From assembly GCA_030690415.1 (NCBI GenBank), contig JAUYGZ010000019.1, forward strand, positions 62,001-126,000: DNA of 64,000 nucleotides. The letters run 5' to 3'. The stretch is from a bacterium. GTDB taxonomy: Bacteria; Patescibacteriota; Gracilibacteria; JAUYGZ01. Positions 5,264 through 60,805 of this stretch are shown here, in pieces. The translations under genes were made by a program, and so were the position numbers. How positions within the stretch are numbered: the first letter of the stretch is position 1; each line of letters begins with the position of its first letter. The notes beneath the pieces were generated by a model. The model worked only from the letters and a program-made list of their open reading frames with translations, was not told the DNA's origin and did not search any database.

Positions 5264-5317
5264 CCGTAAAGCCCACTAGGATTTTGATAGAACACCAAAC
5301 GTGGTGACACCATTTCT

Positions 5318-5346
5318 TCATAGTCTTTATCGTCTTTATCGTCCTT
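5318..5346 (+). repeat. 9-base-period repeat upstream of hsp20
   Basis: Units of TTTATCGTC type (TAGTCTTTATCGTCTTTATC then GTCCTT) end four bases before the hsp20 ATG. The same low-complexity family recurs at 51.6 kb and at both edges of the 59-kb four-helix-bundle element, again just ahead of gene starts. Confidence 0.7.
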
Positions 5347-7658: not shown

Positions 7659-8075
7659 ATGAAAAAATTGTTACTCCTCATCGGAGCAGCTCTAGGTTCC
7701 ATTTTCACGTTGTTTTTCTCAAATAAGAGAGGCGCACAGGTAAGAAAAGAGGTGGAAAGCAAAAAGGAAGCGAAAGAAAAAGCGGAAGTCATCGGAGAGG
7801 AAGCGAAAAGTATGATGAAAAATTTCTGGAATACCATCAAAGGCCCCCTCAAAAGAGGTGTCATCACGGCTGAGGAGGAGGTCAAGAAATACGGAAAAGA
7901 ATACGGAAGCAAGGCCATAGTAAAAATGGAAGAGTGGAAAGACATGGCGGAAAAAGAGATCAAAAAAGACGTGAAAATAGCGAAAAAGGAGATCAATAAA
8001 ACCTTCAAGAAAGCCAAGACAACGGCAAAGAAAAAAGTGAAGCAGGCCAAAAAGGCCGTCCGAAACAAGAAGTAA
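7659..8075 (+). CDS. Lys-rich YtxH-like membrane-anchored protein
   Basis: A 138-residue protein with one N-terminal membrane segment (LLLLIGAALGSIFTLFF, residues 4-20) directly followed by the SNKRGAQVRKEVE stretch typical of YtxH-type proteins. The rest is a long, very Lys/Glu-rich helix, with about a third lysines and a tail rich in AKKK. No catalytic motif. The tail would bind nucleic acid or acidic polymers, or act as a general stress protein; this is inference. The 173 bases before it hold no other gene. Confidence 0.75.
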   Translation: MKKLLLLIGAALGSIFTLFFSNKRGAQVRKEVESKKEAKEKAEVIGEEAKSMMKNFWNTIKGPLKRGVITAEEEVKKYGKEYGSKAIVKMEEWKDMAEKEIKKDVKIAKKEINKTFKKAKTTAKKKVKQAKKAVRNKK

Positions 8076-8146
8076 AAAAGAAGGATCCTTCATTCTCGAT
8101 CTCCCTCCTTCCCCTTCATTCTCTTTTCCCCAAACTCCCAACATTC

Positions 8147-8401
8147 TCATTTCATCCCAAATTCACTGGCTACTTTTTCTAGAAGCCATTTCTTCATCGC
8201 TTCATCAAATCCCAAAGGACTCTTTTTCAATTCCTCAATTTCATCAGGGGTTGGCATTTTGACCATCAAGACCTCCGGAAGGATCTTCCCCCCAACCTTA
8301 ATCTTACCCCGCCCAACACCGATCACCCGCCCCGCGTAGCGAACCGCATTAAACAGAGCGGCAAAGTTCTGACGAGCGTTAGTCTTACTATAAACCTGCA
8401 T
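8147..8401 (-). CDS. putative Phd/YefM-like antitoxin-type protein
   Basis: An 84-residue protein starting [20 protein letters not shown], which resembles the N-terminal DNA-binding part of Phd/YefM antitoxins (an Ala-Arg-x-x-Phe block followed by a short strand, VIGVGRGK). The second half, [19 protein letters not shown], would be the partner-binding tail. No toxin gene lies next to it: its neighbours are the YtxH-like gene (convergent) and hppA (divergent). It may be an orphan antitoxin or a stand-alone regulator. The family call is tentative. Confidence 0.5.
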
Positions 8402-11106: not shown

Positions 11107-11330
11107 GATATGAAATCAAAACTAAAAACCAATTCAGATGATGTCTCTGCAGGGCGTCTCTCATATCGGTTGGAGTTGTAGGAGTATCACTCAGGCGCGG
11201 GGTAAACCAAAGGAACTTTCCACACGGATAGGGCCTGTTTTCGTGTATCGGGATTCAGGACCGCCCTTCGCTTCGCGGGGTAAACCTCTCTTAAGAACTT
11301 AAGAACCTAACAACACTAACAACCTAAAAC

Positions 11331-11384
11331 CCTACAACCTACAACCTACAACCTACAACCTACAACCTACAACCTACAACCTAA
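11331..11384 (+). repeat. (CTACAAC)n tandem array in the gene leader
   Basis: About seven near-perfect units of the 7-mer AACCTAC end 27 bases before the surface-protein ATG at 11411. Degenerate units run back to about 11300. The 224 bases between the promoter and the array hold no ORF. The same 7-mer recurs ahead of uppP, rsmE and htpX. Confidence 0.85.
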
Positions 11385-35778: not shown

Positions 35779-36267
35779 GGTTGTCGGTTATCGGGAGTAG
35801 GTTGTAGACGGTATTAGAAAAAATGTTAGAAAAGCTGCTGAGAGAGCCTATTCAACATCCTCATGACACCATCCAACAATTCATCAACACGGGAGCTATC
35901 TTGCACAAACCCCAAACGCTTAGATAATTCAACCTGAGTCTCCAATTCAGCCCCTGAAGCAAAAGCAGTCACAACAAAATGACGATAATCCTTACGAGTT
36001 CCTCTCCTATTTCCTTCGGCAATATTAGATGGTATCGAAACCACCGATCTTCTCATCTGTGAACTTAAACCATATACTTCTTCCTTCGGGAAGTTTCTTG
36101 TTAGATCATAAATAGCAAGAACCAAGTCCATCGATTTTTGCCATACCATCAAATTTTTATAAGATAACAACGCCATATTCATTCATTACATCATAAATCA
36201 AAGAAACATTATCATATACTCAAATACATAAAAATAGACCACAACCTACTCCCGACAACCGACAACC
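35779..36267. repeat. inverted-repeat-bounded four-helix-bundle element 1
   Basis: 27-bp ends at 35779-35805 (GGTTGTCGGTTATCGGGAGT...) and 36241-36267 are reverse complements with a single mismatch. They enclose one minus-strand four-helix-bundle gene between lemA and htpX. No target duplication is clear. The right end closes 4 bases before the htpX ATG. Confidence 0.85.
35826..36182 (-). CDS. four-helix-bundle protein (23S rRNA intervening-sequence / S23 family), copy 1
   Basis: 118 residues with the family pattern: NLMVWQKSMDLVLAIYDLTR, FPKEEVYGLSSQMRRSVVSI, PSNIAEGNRRGTRKDY, and a last helix AELETQVELSKRL. This family is encoded inside intervening sequences of some 23S rRNA genes and is related to the avd accessory protein of diversity-generating retroelements; its biochemical role is unclear. 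No rRNA gene or reverse transcriptase is near. It is the only gene in element 1. Confidence 0.95.
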   Translation of the reverse strand: MNMALLSYKNLMVWQKSMDLVLAIYDLTRNFPKEEVYGLSSQMRRSVVSIPSNIAEGNRRGTRKDYRHFVVTAFASGAELETQVELSKRLGFVQDSSRVDELLDGVMRMLNRLSQQLF

Positions 36268-37663: not shown

Positions 37664-38506
37664 TCAGGAGCTGGAGTGAAGAAGGAACCAATACCCATTT
37701 ATCATCAATAAATAGCCAACGAAAACCCACAGGCTCCTTTTTCTCAAAAATTTCAACATCCCATAAATGCAGACAAGACTCACCAACATGGAGCTTCCGA
37801 AACCAACCGCCAAGGCTCCTCCGCTTACCATCTGGCCTCCATTGACGGCCCCGAACAGATCCTTCGAAAGAAATATCGTCGCCCCTGCAATAGCCGGAAT
37901 CGCCATCAAAAAAGCAAACTTGGCCGCCGCCTCACGCTCCAGCCCACCCAAAAGCCCCCCCACAATAGTCGACCCACTCCTGGAAATCCCCGGAATAATC
38001 GCCATGACCTGAAAAAATCCCATGAGAAGTGCGGTCTTCAGAGAGTTCATTTGGGTTTCTTTGCGTTTTCCAAAGACTTCTGCCAAAACCAGCAGCACGG
38101 CCGTCACTCCCATCATACCGATAACCACCGAAGCCGAACGAAAATACTGTTCGATCACCTCTTTCAAAAAAGGAGCCAAAAAGACCACCGGAAGCGTCGC
38201 GACGATCAGGTACCAGACCTGCTCTCTCGGATTATCCGGATTCCTCAGCTCCTGTCGGCCCTCCGGCTTCAGCATTTTCTTCATATCAATCCAGAGTCCC
38301 TTCGCCATCCCCACCAAAGTACCCCGGAAGTACAATATCAGTGCCATCAGAGTCCCCGCGTGAAGCACCACATCGAAGCTGAGCAATCCTTCAACATTGA
38401 GCCCCAAAAACGTTTCAGCAAGAACTAAATGTCCTGAGCTGCTAATCGGAAGGAACTCAGTGGCACCCTGGATGATACCGAGAATGAGGGCTTGTAATAA
38501 GGTCAT
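37664..38506 (-). CDS. uppP: undecaprenyl-diphosphatase UppP (BacA)
   Basis: Recycles the lipid carrier undecaprenyl-PP to undecaprenyl-P at the membrane. The 280 residues contain the two diagnostic blocks: GATEFLPISSSGHLVLAE (about residues 14-31) and IPGISRSGSTIVGGLL (about 167-182), plus FDVVLHAGTLMA, and eight membrane helices. The ATG at 38506 directly follows a run of the CTACAAC repeat. It supplies carrier to the sugar transferase at 31.4 kb and to peptidoglycan synthesis. Confidence 0.96.
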   Translation of the reverse strand: MTLLQALILGIIQGATEFLPISSSGHLVLAETFLGLNVEGLLSFDVVLHAGTLMALILYFRGTLVGMAKGLWIDMKKMLKPEGRQELRNPDNPREQVWYLIVATLPVVFLAPFLKEVIEQYFRSASVVIGMMGVTAVLLVLAEVFGKRKETQMNSLKTALLMGFFQVMAIIPGISRSGSTIVGGLLGGLEREAAAKFAFLMAIPAIAGATIFLSKDLFGAVNGGQMVSGGALAVGFGSSMLVSLVCIYGMLKFLRKRSLWVFVGYLLMINGYWFLLHSSS

Positions 38507-38664
38507 AGGTTGTAGGTTGTAGGTTGTAGGTTGTAAGTGGTGAGTAGCAGATAACTCTCAAGAATCGATTATCTGAAGTAGACTTGTATATCCTCTTTCA
38601 CCCTGTGTAGTCTATCGAAGACCCCTCATAACTACAACCTACTCCCTACCACCTACCCCCTCCC
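38507..38664. repeat. facing low-complexity repeats between uppP and rsmE
   Basis: GGTTGTA units (38507-38536) face ACAACCTACTCCC and related units (38634-38663) across a 97-base centre without any gene. ACAACCTACTCCC is shared exactly with the right end of four-helix-bundle element 1 (36241-36253). It looks like an empty bracket of the same repeat family. Confidence 0.7.
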
Positions 38665-39378
38665 ATGCATCGCTTCTTCATCGACCCCCACAGCCTCAAC
38701 AACCAACATTTCCGAACGACCGATAAAGAACTCTGCCACCAGGTCAGCAAAGTGCTGAAAATGAGTGCCGGAAAAAAAATCATCTTCTGCGACAACACGG
38801 AACACGAGTACCTGGCCGAATGGACTATCGTGAGCAGATCAGAATGTTCAGCCAACATCCTCGAAAAGAACTTCAAACCTGATATCGGCAGCCTAAAGCC
38901 CGTCCACCTCTTCGTGCCACCCCTGAAGAATCAAAACCGCTGGGAACTCATGCTCGAGAAAGGAACTGAGATCGGCGTCGCCAGCTTTACCCCTCTCATC
39001 ACCGCGAGAACAGAGGTGACCGAATTACGCAAACTGGATCGCCTTCAGCGAATCATCATTGAAGCCGCTGAGCAAAGCGGAAGAACCAAATTACCAACCA
39101 TCAATCCGCCTCTTTCATTCCAACATGCAATCAACAATAACTGTAATATCGAAGATACCATTCGATTTATTGCTACCCTTGATAAAGATTCAAAACCTCT
39201 GTCTTCCTCCAAACTCCAAACTCCCATCTCCGAACTTTTTATCGGCCCCGTCGGCGACTTCACCGCGGAAGAAATCCAACAAGCCCTTGACCATGGATTT
39301 TTTGCCGTATCACTTGGACAACAGATAATGCGAACCGAAACTGCGGCTCTTGTTGCGGCCACGCTGTGCCTGAACTAA
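38665..39378 (+). CDS. rsmE: 16S rRNA m3U1498 methyltransferase RsmE
   Basis: Methylates U1498 of 16S rRNA using SAM. 237 residues: N-terminal PUA-like part (MHRFFIDPHSL, HQVSKVLKMSAGKKIIFCD), then the SPOUT domain with LMLEKGTEIGV, ERTEVTEL-like ARTEVTELRKL, IIIEAAEQSGRTKLP, LFIGPVGDFTAEE (normally GPEGGF) and VSLGQQIMRTETAALVA. The knot is complete. A run of the AACTCC low-complexity repeat (39208-39238) codes for SKLQTPISEL just before the SAM-binding block, an unusual insertion. Confidence 0.95.
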   Translation: MHRFFIDPHSLNNQHFRTTDKELCHQVSKVLKMSAGKKIIFCDNTEHEYLAEWTIVSRSECSANILEKNFKPDIGSLKPVHLFVPPLKNQNRWELMLEKGTEIGVASFTPLITARTEVTELRKLDRLQRIIIEAAEQSGRTKLPTINPPLSFQHAINNNCNIEDTIRFIATLDKDSKPLSSSKLQTPISELFIGPVGDFTAEEIQQALDHGFFAVSLGQQIMRTETAALVAATLCLN

Positions 39379-53355: not shown

Positions 53356-54180
53356 TTATAGCATTTTTATCCCAAAAAGTCTCCTCGCATTTGCATCCAA
53401 AACCGTATCTACCTCTCCAATCTCCATCTCTTTTAACTTCGCGATCATCTGAGCAGTTTCCACGACATATGCGGGCTCATTCCGCTCTCCCCGATATTTT
53501 TGCGGAGCCAAAAACGGACAATCCGTCTCCACCACAATCCGATCAATCGGTACCATTTTCACGACCTCCCGAAGTTCAGACGCGTTGGGATAAGTCAGCA
53601 CTCCTGAAAAAGACAAAAACCATCCCCTCTTCAAGACCTCCTCAGCCATCTGACGATCACCTGAAAAGCAGTGGAACAAGACCTTACCCTCAACCATCCC
53701 CACCTCATCAAGTATTTGCAAGCAATCTTGCTCGGCTTCATTTAGCTGCCCCCTGCCTTCTGCCAACTGCGAACTCTGTTTTCCCATCCTCAAATGCACC
53801 ACCACCGGCAAATCAAACTCCTGAGCCAACAAGCACTGCTCCCGAAACATCTCCTGCTGCAACCCCGAATCAAAAGGTTCGTGAAAGTAATCAATCCCCG
53901 TCTCCCCCACTCCCACGACCTTGTCACCCGATTCAATCAACTCCCGCATCCAGGCAATACTCTTTTTTCCTTCCCAATACTTCCCATCCGTCGGATGCAG
54001 ACCAACAGTCGCATACAAAGACCCGTACTCAGAGGCCAACTTCACACTCGCCCTGGAACTCTCTTCATCACAGCCTACACAGACAAACGTATGCACCCCT
54101 ACTGCCTTCGCACGCTCGATCACTTCAGGTATCTCTCCCCTGAAATGCTTGAACCAGAGATGACAATGGGTATCTATGAT
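53356..54180 (-). CDS. tatD: TatD-family metal-dependent hydrolase with non-standard start
   Basis: TatD enzymes are Mg-dependent DNases or deoxyribonuclease-like hydrolases. Found: DTHCHLWF (metal His pair), VGVGETGIDYFHE, LPVVVHLR, KVLFHCFSG, and VETDCPFLAPQKYRGERNEP. The HxH block is upstream of the first standard start (GTG at 54123), which would destroy the active site. The frame continues to an ATC-ATA pair at 54180-54175 and then into the AACTCC repeat with no ATG, GTG or TTG. The preceding four-helix-bundle gene stops (TAG) exactly here, so translation may be coupled from ATC or ATA. Confidence 0.85.
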   Translation of the reverse strand: MIDTHCHLWFKHFRGEIPEVIERAKAVGVHTFVCVGCDEESSRASVKLASEYGSLYATVGLHPTDGKYWEGKKSIAWMRELIESGDKVVGVGETGIDYFHEPFDSGLQQEMFREQCLLAQEFDLPVVVHLRMGKQSSQLAEGRGQLNEAEQDCLQILDEVGMVEGKVLFHCFSGDRQMAEEVLKRGWFLSFSGVLTYPNASELREVVKMVPIDRIVVETDCPFLAPQKYRGERNEPAYVVETAQMIAKLKEMEIGEVDTVLDANARRLFGIKML

Positions 54181-54569
54181 AAGTTGGGAGTTTGGAGATT
54201 GGAGTTCGGAGTAAGTTTCGACTCAAGAGCTGATAACATTTTTCGAATCTCAAGAATAAATGCGTGACATTGTTTATATAATTCAAAATTCTTGAGATAC
54301 TTTAAGTTTTCAGCGATAAAAAGCTGAGTTTCCAGTTCTGCGGAAGAGGCTTTAGAATTTCTCAAAAAATAAATAAAATCTTTATTTGTTCTTCGCTGAC
54401 TCCCTTCAGCAATATTTGAAGGTATCGAAACTGCAGATCTTCTCATTTGATTTGTAATCCCATAAACCTCAATTTTTGGGAAATCTTCTGTCAGCTGATA
54501 AACACATGTCACGAGCTGCATGGCTTTCTGCCAAACAATAAGCTTTTGATAATTTGACTCCATACTCAA
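54174..54569 (-). CDS. four-helix-bundle protein (S23 family), copy 2
   Basis: 131 residues: KLIVWQKAMQLVTCVYQLTE, FPKIEVYGITNQMRRSAVSI, PSNIAEGSQRRTNKDF and a C-terminal helix KASSAELETQLFIAENLKYL. The tail SKLTPNSNLQTPNLS is not conserved: it is the translated left repeat of element 2, and the stop lies at the tatD start. As in copy 1, this protein family is known from 23S rRNA intervening sequences. Confidence 0.95.
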   Translation of the reverse strand: MSMESNYQKLIVWQKAMQLVTCVYQLTEDFPKIEVYGITNQMRRSAVSIPSNIAEGSQRRTNKDFIYFLRNSKASSAELETQLFIAENLKYLKNFELYKQCHAFILEIRKMLSALESKLTPNSNLQTPNLS

Positions 54570-54612
54570 ACCTTAAATTTGTCTCCAAACTCCGAACTCC
54601 AATCTCCGAACT
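54189..54612. repeat. inverted-repeat-bounded four-helix-bundle element 2
   Basis: 24-bp ends at 54189-54212 and 54589-54612 are reverse complements with one mismatch (arms contain GGAGATTGGAGTTCGGAGT). They enclose the copy-2 gene between rny and tatD. The right end overlaps the rny stop codon by two bases. The repeat chemistry (AACTCC units) differs from elements 1 and 3. Confidence 0.85.
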
Positions 54613-56432: not shown

Positions 56433-56542
56433 AAACCCATTTTGTCAATATCGACGTCCCAGAAGCCCCATGGAAAAAAAATCAATTGACAAACATTACT
56501 TCTTATTTCCTCGTTTCTTCATTTCTTTATTTCCTCATTCCT

Positions 56543-57283
56543 TCACCCCATATATTTTTCAACAAACTTTCGAGCCTTCTCCAAATTCTTCATCACCTTG
56601 GCATCATCACCCGCTTGTAAGGCTTTAGGACGGACCAGAAGGGTCAAATCACCCGCATACTGATCCTTCGCAAGCTTCGTCAGAAAGCTCTCCAAAGGCA
56701 TAATGCCATCCATCGGCATACTGTGTTCTTTTCCCTGTTGCACATTCGAGAGGTGGACATGAACCAGATATTTTTTCATCAGATCATAGGCCCTCATCAG
56801 ATCAAGCCGCTTCGCGAAGAGATTTGAGGTATCAAGACACACTTCCTCGAAATTTTGAAGATCAGGAATACTGGACATCGATCGCCCCGGCAATACTCCC
56901 CACAGGGTCTCGGTTGGACCGTTCTTCAGAGCAAGATGAAAACCATATTTTTTGCGCAATCCCGGAACCTCCTTTTTCAGCCAATTCTTATACGTAAAAT
57001 CAAACAAACGTGGCGGATCCAGGACAAGCGTCTCTGCCTTCACTGCTTCAGCAATACTCATCGCGAGCGTGGTCTGCTTGACCGTGCTATTGGGAAAAGT
57101 CCTGACAGCGCGAACAGGCAGATCAAACTGCTTTTGAAGCTCATTCAGATACTCGCTGCTTTGGGTATCAAACTCTCGTATATCCAGTGCCACCTCCACT
57201 CCTCCATAGCCCGCCTCCTTGGCAAAGCGAAAAACCCGATTGAGACCATAGCCACGAAGACTGTCAGTGGAGAGAAGAAGCAT
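56543..57283 (-). CDS. sugar phosphate isomerase/epimerase-like TIM barrel protein
   Basis: 246 residues of the AP_endonuc_2/xylose-isomerase-like fold: LLLSTDSLRGYGLNRVFRFA, GYGGVEVAL, HLALKNGP, EEVCLDTSNLF and VHVHLSNVQQGKEH. The conserved metal positions are partly kept (Glu, Asp, His of VHLSN). Substrate unknown; the family includes sugar epimerases, inositol-type isomerases and endonuclease IV, but the DNA-binding loops of the latter are not seen. Confidence 0.8.
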   Translation of the reverse strand: MLLLSTDSLRGYGLNRVFRFAKEAGYGGVEVALDIREFDTQSSEYLNELQKQFDLPVRAVRTFPNSTVKQTTLAMSIAEAVKAETLVLDPPRLFDFTYKNWLKKEVPGLRKKYGFHLALKNGPTETLWGVLPGRSMSSIPDLQNFEEVCLDTSNLFAKRLDLMRAYDLMKKYLVHVHLSNVQQGKEHSMPMDGIMPLESFLTKLAKDQYAGDLTLLVRPKALQAGDDAKVMKNLEKARKFVEKYMG

Positions 57284-58193: not shown

Positions 58194-59078
58194 TTATATC
58201 CCCAAAAACAAATCCTCCAGGACCAAACGCCTGTTCACTTGGGTATCTTCGAAGAGTTGGCTCACCTCCTGCAGGCGGTCCAGCTGCTTCAAATAGCGCT
58301 GAGTCCCCTCCTGCTTCAGCTTCAACGCCAAAAACATGAGAAACTGGGACAGCTCAGCCGAACTCACTTCTTTCTGCGAAAGATGCTCTGCCAGATGAAA
58401 GCGATCCACAATATCCTTTTCAAAAATCAGCATCGCGTAATCGTAGAGCTCCCTCATCCGGTCTAGCAAAGCCGCATCTTTCATCATCGAAAGAGCCAGA
58501 CCAATCCGACCGGCTGATAACTTCATCAATTCTTGAACCATCACTTCATTTTTAACCCGGGACAGCAAAAAACTTTCCACCGCCTTCCCCGGTAGAAGCG
58601 TAAAACGAAAAAACTGCACCCGCGAGCGGATCGTTGGCAAAAGCTTCTTTTCCTCCCGCGTCGTCATCAGATACACAAAGCGCTCGGACGGCTCCTCAAG
58701 AACCTTCAAAAAAGCATTCGCTGCCGACCGGGTCATCCGCTCCAGATGCTCAATCACACAAAAAGATACCTCCCCTTCTGCCGTCCTCCGCGACACAAAG
58801 TCTACGATTTTCCTCACTTCATCCACCTTTAGTGTCTCCCCATCATCCAAAAAACTGATGAAACCAGGCCCCTGCCCCACCATCACCTGCCTCCCAAAAA
58901 CTGATTCCGGGTCAAAAGAGACCTGTGTCCGAACAAGACTCAAAAACTCCCGTAATAAACTCATCTTGCCGATATGCTCTGGCCCACTAAACAGATAAGA
59001 CTGGTGAAAATTCTTTGTTTCAAGATCGCTCTTGAGTTGATCCTTGATCCGATCATGACCGACGATAGCTTGAAACAT
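58194..59078 (-). CDS. holB: DNA polymerase III delta' subunit (clamp loader), HolB-like
   Basis: 294 residues of the clamp-loader AAA fold: MFQAIVGHDRIKDQL, SYLFSGPEHIGKMSLLREF (Walker-A-like, but Met follows GK, so ATP binding is doubtful, as expected for delta'), KVDEVRKIVDFVSRR, VCVIEHLERMT-like FCVIEHLERM, NAFLKVLEEP (SRC-type position) and IRSRVQFFRF. The four zinc-binding Cys of E. coli delta' are missing. Divergent from the four-helix-bundle gene; the 9-base repeat begins right after its start codon region. Confidence 0.88.
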   Translation of the reverse strand: MFQAIVGHDRIKDQLKSDLETKNFHQSYLFSGPEHIGKMSLLREFLSLVRTQVSFDPESVFGRQVMVGQGPGFISFLDDGETLKVDEVRKIVDFVSRRTAEGEVSFCVIEHLERMTRSAANAFLKVLEEPSERFVYLMTTREEKKLLPTIRSRVQFFRFTLLPGKAVESFLLSRVKNEVMVQELMKLSAGRIGLALSMMKDAALLDRMRELYDYAMLIFEKDIVDRFHLAEHLSQKEVSSAELSQFLMFLALKLKQEGTQRYLKQLDRLQEVSQLFEDTQVNRRLVLEDLFLGI

Positions 59079-59086
59079 AGGACGAT

Positions 59087-59654
59087 AAGGATGATAAAGA
59101 CGATAAAGACTATAAGGATTCTTTCAATCTGAAACAAATCAGAAAGCAATCAAGTATAAAATATTGCATATACTGAATATCATACTTTATAAAAAGAGAG
59201 ATTCTATAATGCAAAGAGATGAACATCTACGATCGTTCATTTAGAAGACTGATAGTTTGGAGAGAGGCCAAAAAACTCACTATCAACATATACCAAATGA
59301 CCAAGCGATTTCCTAAAGAAGAAAAATACAGCATGACAAATCAGATGAGAAGAGCAGCAAATTCTATCATGGCCAACATTGCTGAAGGAAATGAGAGAAA
59401 ATCAAAGAACGATTGCTGTCGATTCCTTGAGGTTGCGCGGGGATCACTCGTCGAGGTCGATTGTTTCATTGATTTAGCTTATGAACTTACCTATCTTTCT
59501 GATACCGATTTCAAGACTCTTTCTGACCAGATAGCAAAAACAGGATATCTTTTGCATCAGTTTTCAGAAGCACAAGAACGAAATCCAATGAGAAAATAAA
59601 TAAATCCATATCATCATTATCATCCTTATCATCTTTATAGTCCTTATCATCCTT
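59087..59654. repeat. inverted-repeat-bounded four-helix-bundle element 3
   Basis: 33-base ends at 59087-59119 and 59622-59654 match as inverted repeats at 29 of 33 positions; both are built of 9-base GATAAGGAT/GATAAAGAC units. They enclose copy 3 between holB and the phosphofructokinase gene. The left arm abuts the holB start and the right arm ends five bases before the next ATG. Confidence 0.8.
59219..59599 (+). CDS. four-helix-bundle protein (S23 family), copy 3
   Basis: 126 residues: RLIVWREAKKLTINIYQMTK, FPKEEKYSMTNQMRRAANSI, MANIAEGNERKSKNDCCRFL, then GSLVEVDCFIDLAYEL. Diverged from copies 1 and 2, so the three are not recent duplicates. It is on the + strand, while copies 1 and 2 are on the minus strand. 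Confidence 0.95.
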   Translation: MNIYDRSFRRLIVWREAKKLTINIYQMTKRFPKEEKYSMTNQMRRAANSIMANIAEGNERKSKNDCCRFLEVARGSLVEVDCFIDLAYELTYLSDTDFKTLSDQIAKTGYLLHQFSEAQERNPMRK

Positions 59655-59659
59655 CCCCT

Positions 59660-60805
59660 ATGAAACTCCTGATTGCCCAAGGCGGCGGCCCCACAGCCGT
59701 CATCAACCAATCCCTCGTGGGAGCAGTCCTCGAAGCCAAAAAAAATGGACTCGAGATCATCGGATCTCGATACGGCATCCAGGGGATTGTGGAAGAAGAC
59801 TTTGTGGAACTTCACAGGCTCGACGATGAGAAACTCAATCGTATTGCAGAAACACCGGGAAGCGTACTTTTTTCAACAAGAGACAAGCCAAATCAGGAGT
59901 ATTGTACAAATATTTTGAACATCTTTCAAAAGCATGATATCAAAGGATTTTTCTACATCGGCGGCAATGACTCATCGGAAACCATCCGGATCGTTCTGGA
60001 AGCGGCAAAAGCCTCGCAATATGACATGAAAGGATTTCATATCCCCAAGACCGTGGACAACGACCTTGTCGAAAACGACCACACCCCCGGATTTCCTTCC
60101 GCGGCACGCTTCGTCGCGAAAGCCATGATGGGACTCGAGCGGGACAATGCCGCTCTCCCCGGCATCCACATCGCCATCATCATGGGCCGCCATGCCGGCT
60201 TCTTGACCGCCGCGGGCGCGCTGGGTGGAGCTCATCGCGTCTATATCCCGGAGCAGGTCTTCGACCTTGACCACTTCGCTCGTGAAGTCAAAGAAACCTA
60301 TGAGGAACATGGTCGGGCTATACTCTCCATCAGTGAAGGGATCTCAGGAGCCGACGGCAACCCTATCATCACTCAATTCGTCAAAAACGAAGTGGATGCC
60401 CACGGCAATATCCAGCTCAGCGGACTGCCTCTGGGAAATGTCCTGGCTGATTTTCTGAAAGAAAAAACGGGCATTTCACGCGTCAGACAGGACACCTTTG
60501 GATACCCGCAACGCAGCTATCCCGACCCTAGTCCTGTCGACAGCCGGGAAGCCAGACAGGTGGGCGAACAGGCTGTCCAACTCTACACCGAAGACCAGCT
60601 CCAATCCGCCTCTATCACTATTAAACGCGTTTCCAACTCTCCATACGAAATTCGAATCGAACCTGTGGAGCTGGAAAAAGTCGCCAACAAAACCCGGCAC
60701 CTTCCGGAGGAGTATTATGATTCAGAAAAAAAACAGCTCACCCAAGCCGGGCTTGACTACCTTATGCCGCTGGTGGGAGAGCTACCCAGCATCGAAACAA
60801 TCTAA
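59660..60805 (+). CDS. 6-phosphofructokinase, pyrophosphate-dependent type predicted
   Basis: 381 residues. Phosphorylates fructose-6-phosphate at position 1. The donor-binding residues are diagnostic: YIGGNDSSET (about residue 100) and HIPKTVDNDL (about 128), where Lys follows Pro as in PPi-using enzymes and ATP enzymes have Gly. Other blocks: AQGGGPTAVINQSLVG, GFPSAARFVAKAMMG, IIMGRHAGFLTAAGAL (MGR), ISEGISG, and RQDTFGYPQRSYPDPSP. The reaction would be reversible and ATP-saving. Confidence 0.9.
   Translation: MKLLIAQGGGPTAVINQSLVGAVLEAKKNGLEIIGSRYGIQGIVEEDFVELHRLDDEKLNRIAETPGSVLFSTRDKPNQEYCTNILNIFQKHDIKGFFYIGGNDSSETIRIVLEAAKASQYDMKGFHIPKTVDNDLVENDHTPGFPSAARFVAKAMMGLERDNAALPGIHIAIIMGRHAGFLTAAGALGGAHRVYIPEQVFDLDHFAREVKETYEEHGRAILSISEGISGADGNPIITQFVKNEVDAHGNIQLSGLPLGNVLADFLKEKTGISRVRQDTFGYPQRSYPDPSPVDSREARQVGEQAVQLYTEDQLQSASITIKRVSNSPYEIRIEPVELEKVANKTRHLPEEYYDSEKKQLTQAGLDYLMPLVGELPSIETI

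Follow-up and report, generated by a model that had tools for sequence, protein, structure and literature searches.

The stretch of DNA analysed here (the window) is 64,000 nucleotides long and belongs to a gracilibacterial genome of 1.45 Mb in 30 contigs (G000). It includes three strong IVP loci, named elements 1 to 3. Element 3 (59084..59654, + strand) fills the gap between holB (58194-59078, − strand) and a gene of the phosphofructokinase (PFK) family that starts at position 59660 on the + strand. Its extent was defined by arm alignment, an array scan and comparison with the empty site in the sister genus G001, and it consists of a G-rich 9-mer arm, an IVP gene and a C-rich 9-mer arm. The left arm (59084..59119, + strand) includes four copies of the unit KATAARGAY, the G-rich strand of which reads inward, while the right arm (59604..59654, − strand) includes 5 to 5.7 inverted units and is C-rich on the + strand. 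The 9-base units on which the initial annotation had based the arms are therefore borne out, and so is the inverse match that it had described, at 29 of 33 positions (88% complementary), between 59087-59119 and 59622-59654, which are separated by 502 nt. The outer edges of the arms are found 5 bp from the holB start codon and 5 bp from the PFK start codon. As RNA, the arm duplex has a predicted energy of −33.9 kcal/mol, and the arms are paired in the folded element RNA.

The gene located between the arms (59219..59599, + strand) codes for a four-helix-bundle protein of 126 amino acids that belongs to the family PF05635 (23S_rRNA_IVP; 125.2 bits, E 1.5e-36, curated cut-off 33.8) and TIGR02436 (113.2 bits, curated cut-off 24). 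Apart from PF05635, a profile search of this protein gave no more than a weak match to bAvd, and no transposase. As had been noted from the sequence, the gene lies on the strand opposite to those of elements 1 and 2 (35826-36182 and 54174-54563, both on the − strand) and has diverged from them, the protein p-distances to the other two strong IVPs of the window being 0.67 and 0.66.

The profile search identified seven PF05635 matches in G000, five strong and two weak. All five strong genes are flanked by inverted arms, each with different units: two 7-mers and the 9-mer in the window, a 7-mer on contig C6 and an 8-mer on contig C8. No inverted tandem arms were seen at the two weak matches. Element 1 consists of a left arm with the 7-mer GGTTGTM (35779..35805, + strand), the IVP gene (L011; 35826..36182, − strand) and a right arm (36241..36267, − strand) located 5 bp ahead of a start codon. 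Element 2 has a left arm with the 7-mer AGTTYGG (54182..54212, + strand), an IVP gene (L009; 54174..54563, − strand) and a right arm (54583..54612, − strand). The C-terminus of the element 2 protein is encoded by the arm (54174-54212), and the IVP at locus L054 (G047:C31), which ends in KDYKDYKDYKD, is another such case; in these instances the gene has run into its own repeat.

The window also includes arrays without a gene. An inward pair of element-1-type 7-mers (38506..38665, no strand assigned) is formed by arms at 38506-38535 and 38632-38665 with a 96-bp loop. Three solo arrays are found on the − strand: a C-rich 9-mer array of the element 3 type (5315..5343) located 8 bp ahead of a start codon, eleven copies of the 7-mer AACCTAC (11304..11383) that match the arms of element 1, and an 8-mer array (56500..56545) matching the arms of the IVP gene on contig C8 (L013). 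In a survey of 445 kb of sampled stretches of G000, 48 of 74 gene-less arrays fitted the arms of the genome's own five strong IVPs, element 3 accounting for 30 of the 48, while random sets of five foreign IVPs matched 4.3 arrays on average and 32 at most. The array density per 100 kb, estimated from partial samples, was 2.0 in IVP-free members of the class (ten genomes, 20-40 kb sampled from each), 9.6 in IVP-bearing members and 14.1 in G000; the difference between IVP-bearing and IVP-free genomes is about 5-fold (p 5.5e-5, uncorrected for kinship). Separate short hairpins of the type TACAGACG..CGTCTCTAC occur beside heptamer arrays in L116 at about 8010-8210 (G000:C23:88010-88210) and represent another dispersed repeat.

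The gene-less inverted pairs in the 445 kb are all inward, with loops of 8-96 bp, and the lone outward pair corresponds to the interval between two adjacent arrays. On the GC-skewed contigs C27 and C23 the C-rich strand of the solo arrays was on the + strand in 33 of 33 cases, and this orientation follows the skew even where the adjacent genes run opposite. Contigs of G000 without GC skew include mainly inverted pairs. The link between skew and the orientation of solo arrays may reflect strand-specific insertion or a strand-biased decay of one of the arms.

To determine how general this anatomy is, the left flank of each IVP gene was aligned to the reverse complement of its right flank. In a first set of 96 IVP genes from G000 and its class, with a threshold at the 99th percentile of mismatched flank pairs, arms were found at 70. 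A second set comprised 80 loci, 78 of which were counted, on genome contigs of many phyla, including Bacteroidota, Planctomycetota, Chloroflexota, Pseudomonadota, Bacillota, Verrucomicrobiota, Nitrospirota, Omnitrophota, CPR lineages and others; here 60 loci had arms (score at least 14.5). At the same score, only 2/110 and 4/381 control ORFs (1-2%) had arms. Among the loci below threshold (26/96 in the class and 18/78 elsewhere) some have decayed arms, such as L031, and others have none, such as the weak family members L014 and L015. The IVP loci compared on cyanobacterial plasmids have arms of the heptamer type in 8 of 8 cases, two of which (L270 and L271) are near-identical loci. The units vary by locus, most of them being 7-9 bp and some 6 or 11-12 bp long, and the arms are often degenerate. 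The arm strand read inward was G-rich at 57 loci versus 12 where it was not in the first set (p 4e-8), and at 59 versus 1 in the second.

The alignment score of the element 3 arms was 23, compared with 20 for the 99.9th percentile of mismatched flank pairs, and of ten Markov shuffles of the window, eight generated no comparable array and the other two a single one each, with 2-3 units. Together with the control ORFs, these results rule out a chance origin of the bracketed layout.

Comparison of orthologous sites revealed filled and empty versions. In the sister genus G001, holB and the PFK gene are adjacent in the same divergent order and the IVP gene is absent. The PFK gene is preceded there by a different C-rich 8-mer array of the TCCTAACTG type (L165 1440-1500), and therefore the holB-PFK junction has been a target at least twice. 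Genus g22 provided four sites that are filled in some species and empty in others. At the rpsS-rplV gap only G039 has the element; in three species the gap measures about 20 bp, and in a fourth its place is taken by a solo array with the unit of that species' own IVP. As for the rpsH-rplF gap, G039 again has the element, G055 retains a degraded 3′ fragment of the gene and three species have an empty gap. Two further sites, filled in G030 and G047, are empty in sister species. Plasmids of Nostocales provided another five sites with both versions, the empty gaps being 0-52 bp; for sites A, B and C the records compared are 90-95% identical. Four of these five insertions are in stop/start gaps of 0-3 bp, and in one of the five the gene is antisense to the operon. 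In one case a gene-less remnant of 260 bp retains both arms. The Nostoc loci L281 and L274 show that, in different plasmids, two adjacent junctions of one plasmid operon have different IVP elements. By genome comparison, this presence or absence at orthologous sites shows that the gene and its arms are one insertion unit, and hence mobile DNA in the broad sense.

Target-site duplications of IVP elements are short, ambiguous or absent; possible ones at the Nostocales insertions, TTCTA at site A and ATG at site A2, overlap the repeat sequence. The distance from the outer edge of the arms to the neighboring stop codon has a median of 10 bp and that to the start codon a median of 19 bp, and this placement may reflect either targeting or purifying selection. 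An IVP element is found immediately upstream of a 16S rRNA gene at L089 (G039:C104). Another one (L272) separates cas6 from cas4 in a type I-D CRISPR locus on the Anabaena sp. 90 plasmid pANA02. The 23S rRNA IVP appears among published CRISPR associations (PMC10910872), an entry that the insertion in Anabaena sp. 90 may explain; if IVP elements make and move the arrays, such odd associations of IVP genes would be simple insertions.

The initial annotation had inferred an independent arrival of element 3 and convergence on the same bracketed layout, and had proposed a phylogeny of the proteins as a check, with a local clade born of one duplication together with the arms as the outcome that would speak against it. 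In the tree of the 96 proteins the five strong IVPs of G000 fall into five separate clades, with five origins that are forced by the starred branches; the protein closest to that of element 3 belongs to G001. A local duplication as the source of the three copies in the window is ruled out by this tree, as no such clade was found. The five separate origins and the adjoining holB and PFK genes without an IVP gene in G001 support the independent arrival. The idea of convergence, on the other hand, is not supported, since inward inverted tandem arms are present on most members of the family in many phyla and their units track the protein tree. Protein distance and arm similarity are correlated (Mantel r −0.27, reached in 0 of 2000 permutations), and unit length changes 14 times on the protein tree compared with a minimum of 20 among 300 shuffles. 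The eight 9-mer elements require just two changes, the clade of element 3 is largely 9-mer, and six elements with 11- or 12-mers make up a single clade in G056. These comparisons show that the length and the sequence of the arm unit are inherited along with the IVP protein, and indicate that the bracketed layout is handed down with the element, the repeat units diverging together with the protein. Such co-inheritance would be equally expected if the arms were a mere binding or regulatory site.

Some other features of the IVP proteins became apparent. The residues Q42, R45, S49, N53, E56, G57 and E79 are near-invariant and possibly define a functional site. Solved structures are available among the relatives (2gsc, 2rld), and the Xanthomonas IVP structure is a pentamer (PMC4990558). 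The proteins at L077 (G039) and L039 (G024) are closely similar in spite of belonging to different families of the class, a candidate case of recent horizontal transfer. The IVP genes of G012, G023 and G057 have in-frame TGA codons, which suggests that these bacteria translate TGA as an amino acid.

The mobility of the IVP elements is shown by the comparison of sites, and from the remaining evidence we infer that the IVP acts on the arms. Element 3 is probably a copy of a widespread mobile element of about 400-600 bp in which the IVP recognises its own repeat and drives the spread with host enzymes. Such an element consists of one IVP/S23-type four-helix-bundle gene between inward inverted arrays of short tandem repeats, the G-rich strand of each array running from the flank toward the gene. 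Comparison shows that the insertions are located in short intergenic gaps, often with a stop codon right on one side and a start codon on the other, and that gene-less arrays and hairpins with the same unit are dispersed in the same genome. The IVP would recognise the repeat as a hairpin or a single strand, of DNA or RNA, and would drive copying or insertion in cis; it would also serve the gene-less hairpins in trans, as RAYT does REP. To our knowledge, the PF05635 family has no known catalytic domain. A processing step by RNase III at the arms is possible by analogy with the rRNA intervening sequences (IVS).

Potential partners were looked for by profile search. RVT_1 had no match in G000 or in the IVP-rich genomes G007, G011, G019, G021, G030, G031, G039, G053 and G056, and the Y1 transposase had none in G000 nor in several IVP-rich relatives; therefore neither of them is required, and both a reverse transcriptase and a Y1 transposase can be discarded as obligatory partners. 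A phage origin was rejected as the IVP had no match in 50,697 phage records.

Other explanations for the arrays were considered. They could be regulatory leaders, in which the IVP or another RNA-binding protein acts on pyrimidine-rich repeats to control translation and the bracketed gene is autoregulated. The C-rich arrays in G000 do often end 4-11 nt ahead of start codons, and this role has been proposed for the TAACTGA repeats, which are mostly found immediately ahead of start codons (MacGregor 2015, PMC4679880). However, the orientation of the solo arrays tracks the GC skew (33/33 on two contigs), so that genes on the opposite strand get a G-rich leader, the arms are as close to stop as to start codons (median 10 versus 19 bp), many insertions are inside operons, and the orthologous genes at empty sites manage without arrays, all of which makes a regulatory role an unlikely explanation. 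A purely RNA-level role, with the arms as a stem cut by RNase III as in the rRNA IVS, agrees with the pairing of the arms in the folded element RNA and with the Coxiella 23S IVS, the complementary ends of which are cut by RNase III in vitro (PMC4990558). Since it leaves the insertion polymorphism and the scattered gene-less copies unexplained, we consider it quite improbable as the whole explanation, while as an added feature it is compatible with a mobile element.

It could also be argued that slippage or recombination makes the arrays expand and move, and that the IVP is a passenger, captured between inverted arrays by chance or by recombination; tandem arrays are indeed prone to changes in length, and degenerate arms are frequent. 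We give little credence to this possibility because about 75% of the IVP genes are bracketed by arms versus 1-2% of other genes, the unit length tracks the IVP tree, and the array density in the sampled IVP-free relatives is about one fifth. Finally, a reverse transcriptase or a telomerase-like activity might extend both 3′ ends of a break with G-rich arrays, the IVP serving as an accessory like Avd. The geometry is consistent with this mechanism, as the G-rich strand runs 5′ to 3′ inward from each flank, and the IVP weakly matches the Avd models, but RVT_1 is unmatched in G000 and the nine IVP-rich genomes, although a very divergent enzyme could escape the profile; on balance this appears highly improbable.

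The mobile element in which the IVP acts on its own repeat is thus the reading that we prefer. Comparison of genomes gives good support to the more limited statement that a phylum-spanning element with short-tandem-repeat arms and without a recognisable transposase is mobile DNA. A wider proposal, toward which we are inclined to be somewhat skeptical, is that IVP elements constitute a class of mobile DNA in its own right, with no known transposase, in which the IVP itself sets the unit (mostly 7-9 bp, also 11-12) and builds or spreads the arrays, and that most of the intergenic tandem repeats of 7-9 bp in bacteria, including the cyanobacterial STRR, derive from them.

For decades, genes of the PF05635 family have carried the annotation of rRNA intervening-sequence or 'ribosomal S23' proteins, with no function given. 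A search of the open literature, outside of which are subscription papers and preprints, found no link of PF05635 to tandem-repeat arms. If IVP elements make and move the arrays, one small protein family would account for both the IVP genes and the heptamer repeats, and there would be testable repeat-protein pairs as well as mobile DNA without a known transposase. The elements are a candidate source of the long-unexplained short tandem repeats in some bacterial genomes.

Among known systems, insertion sequences share the inverted ends with element 3, which lacks a transposase domain; a fixed target duplication would be expected of them, while IVP elements have short ones or none. Avd of the diversity-generating retroelements has a related fold and a weak sequence match to the element 3 IVP (NF033474, E 1e-8), which is below the Avd cut-offs (35 versus 80 bits; bAvd, 25 versus 40 bits), and, unlike in Avd systems, G000 has no RVT_1 match and hence no reverse transcriptase partner. 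The REP/BIME sequences with RAYT are similar in being intergenic hairpins, in having a protein gene bracketed by the same repeats and in the excess of gene-less copies, which are many in G000 (48 of 74 arrays in 445 kb match the arms of its own IVPs). They differ in that the gene bracketed here has no Y1 (HUH) transposase and the arms are tandem arrays, whereas REPs are single palindromes. The heptamer repeats of cyanobacteria, Xanthomonas and Beggiatoaceae (STRR, GGGAATC and TAACTGA), compared by their descriptions, are likewise 7-bp intergenic tandem arrays. The TAACTGA repeats are found ahead of start codons by a mechanism that was not evident (MacGregor 2015, PMC4679880), and the GGGAATC repeats, the inverted pairs of which number about 70 per genome in two Xanthomonas genomes, were described as convergent, no link to mobile elements being found in that 2015 study (PMC4692102). 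Unlike the reading presented here, these papers (PMC4679880, PMC4692102) name no mobile element or mechanism. The rRNA IVS with an S23p/IVP ORF from Coxiella, Leptospira and CPR have a PF05635 protein, a size of about 430 bp and complementary stem-forming ends, like those of element 3 (29/33, duplex −33.9 kcal/mol). The Coxiella IVS includes heptameric tandem repeats before the ORF, the number of which varies between strains, and mobility has already been suggested for the IVS (PMC4990558); IVP ORFs are also present in the rRNA insertions of CPR (PMC11270868). Unlike the IVS, element 3 is located between the protein genes holB and PFK, outside any rRNA gene, and the copies described here have tandem-array arms that track the protein and gene-less satellite arrays in the genome.
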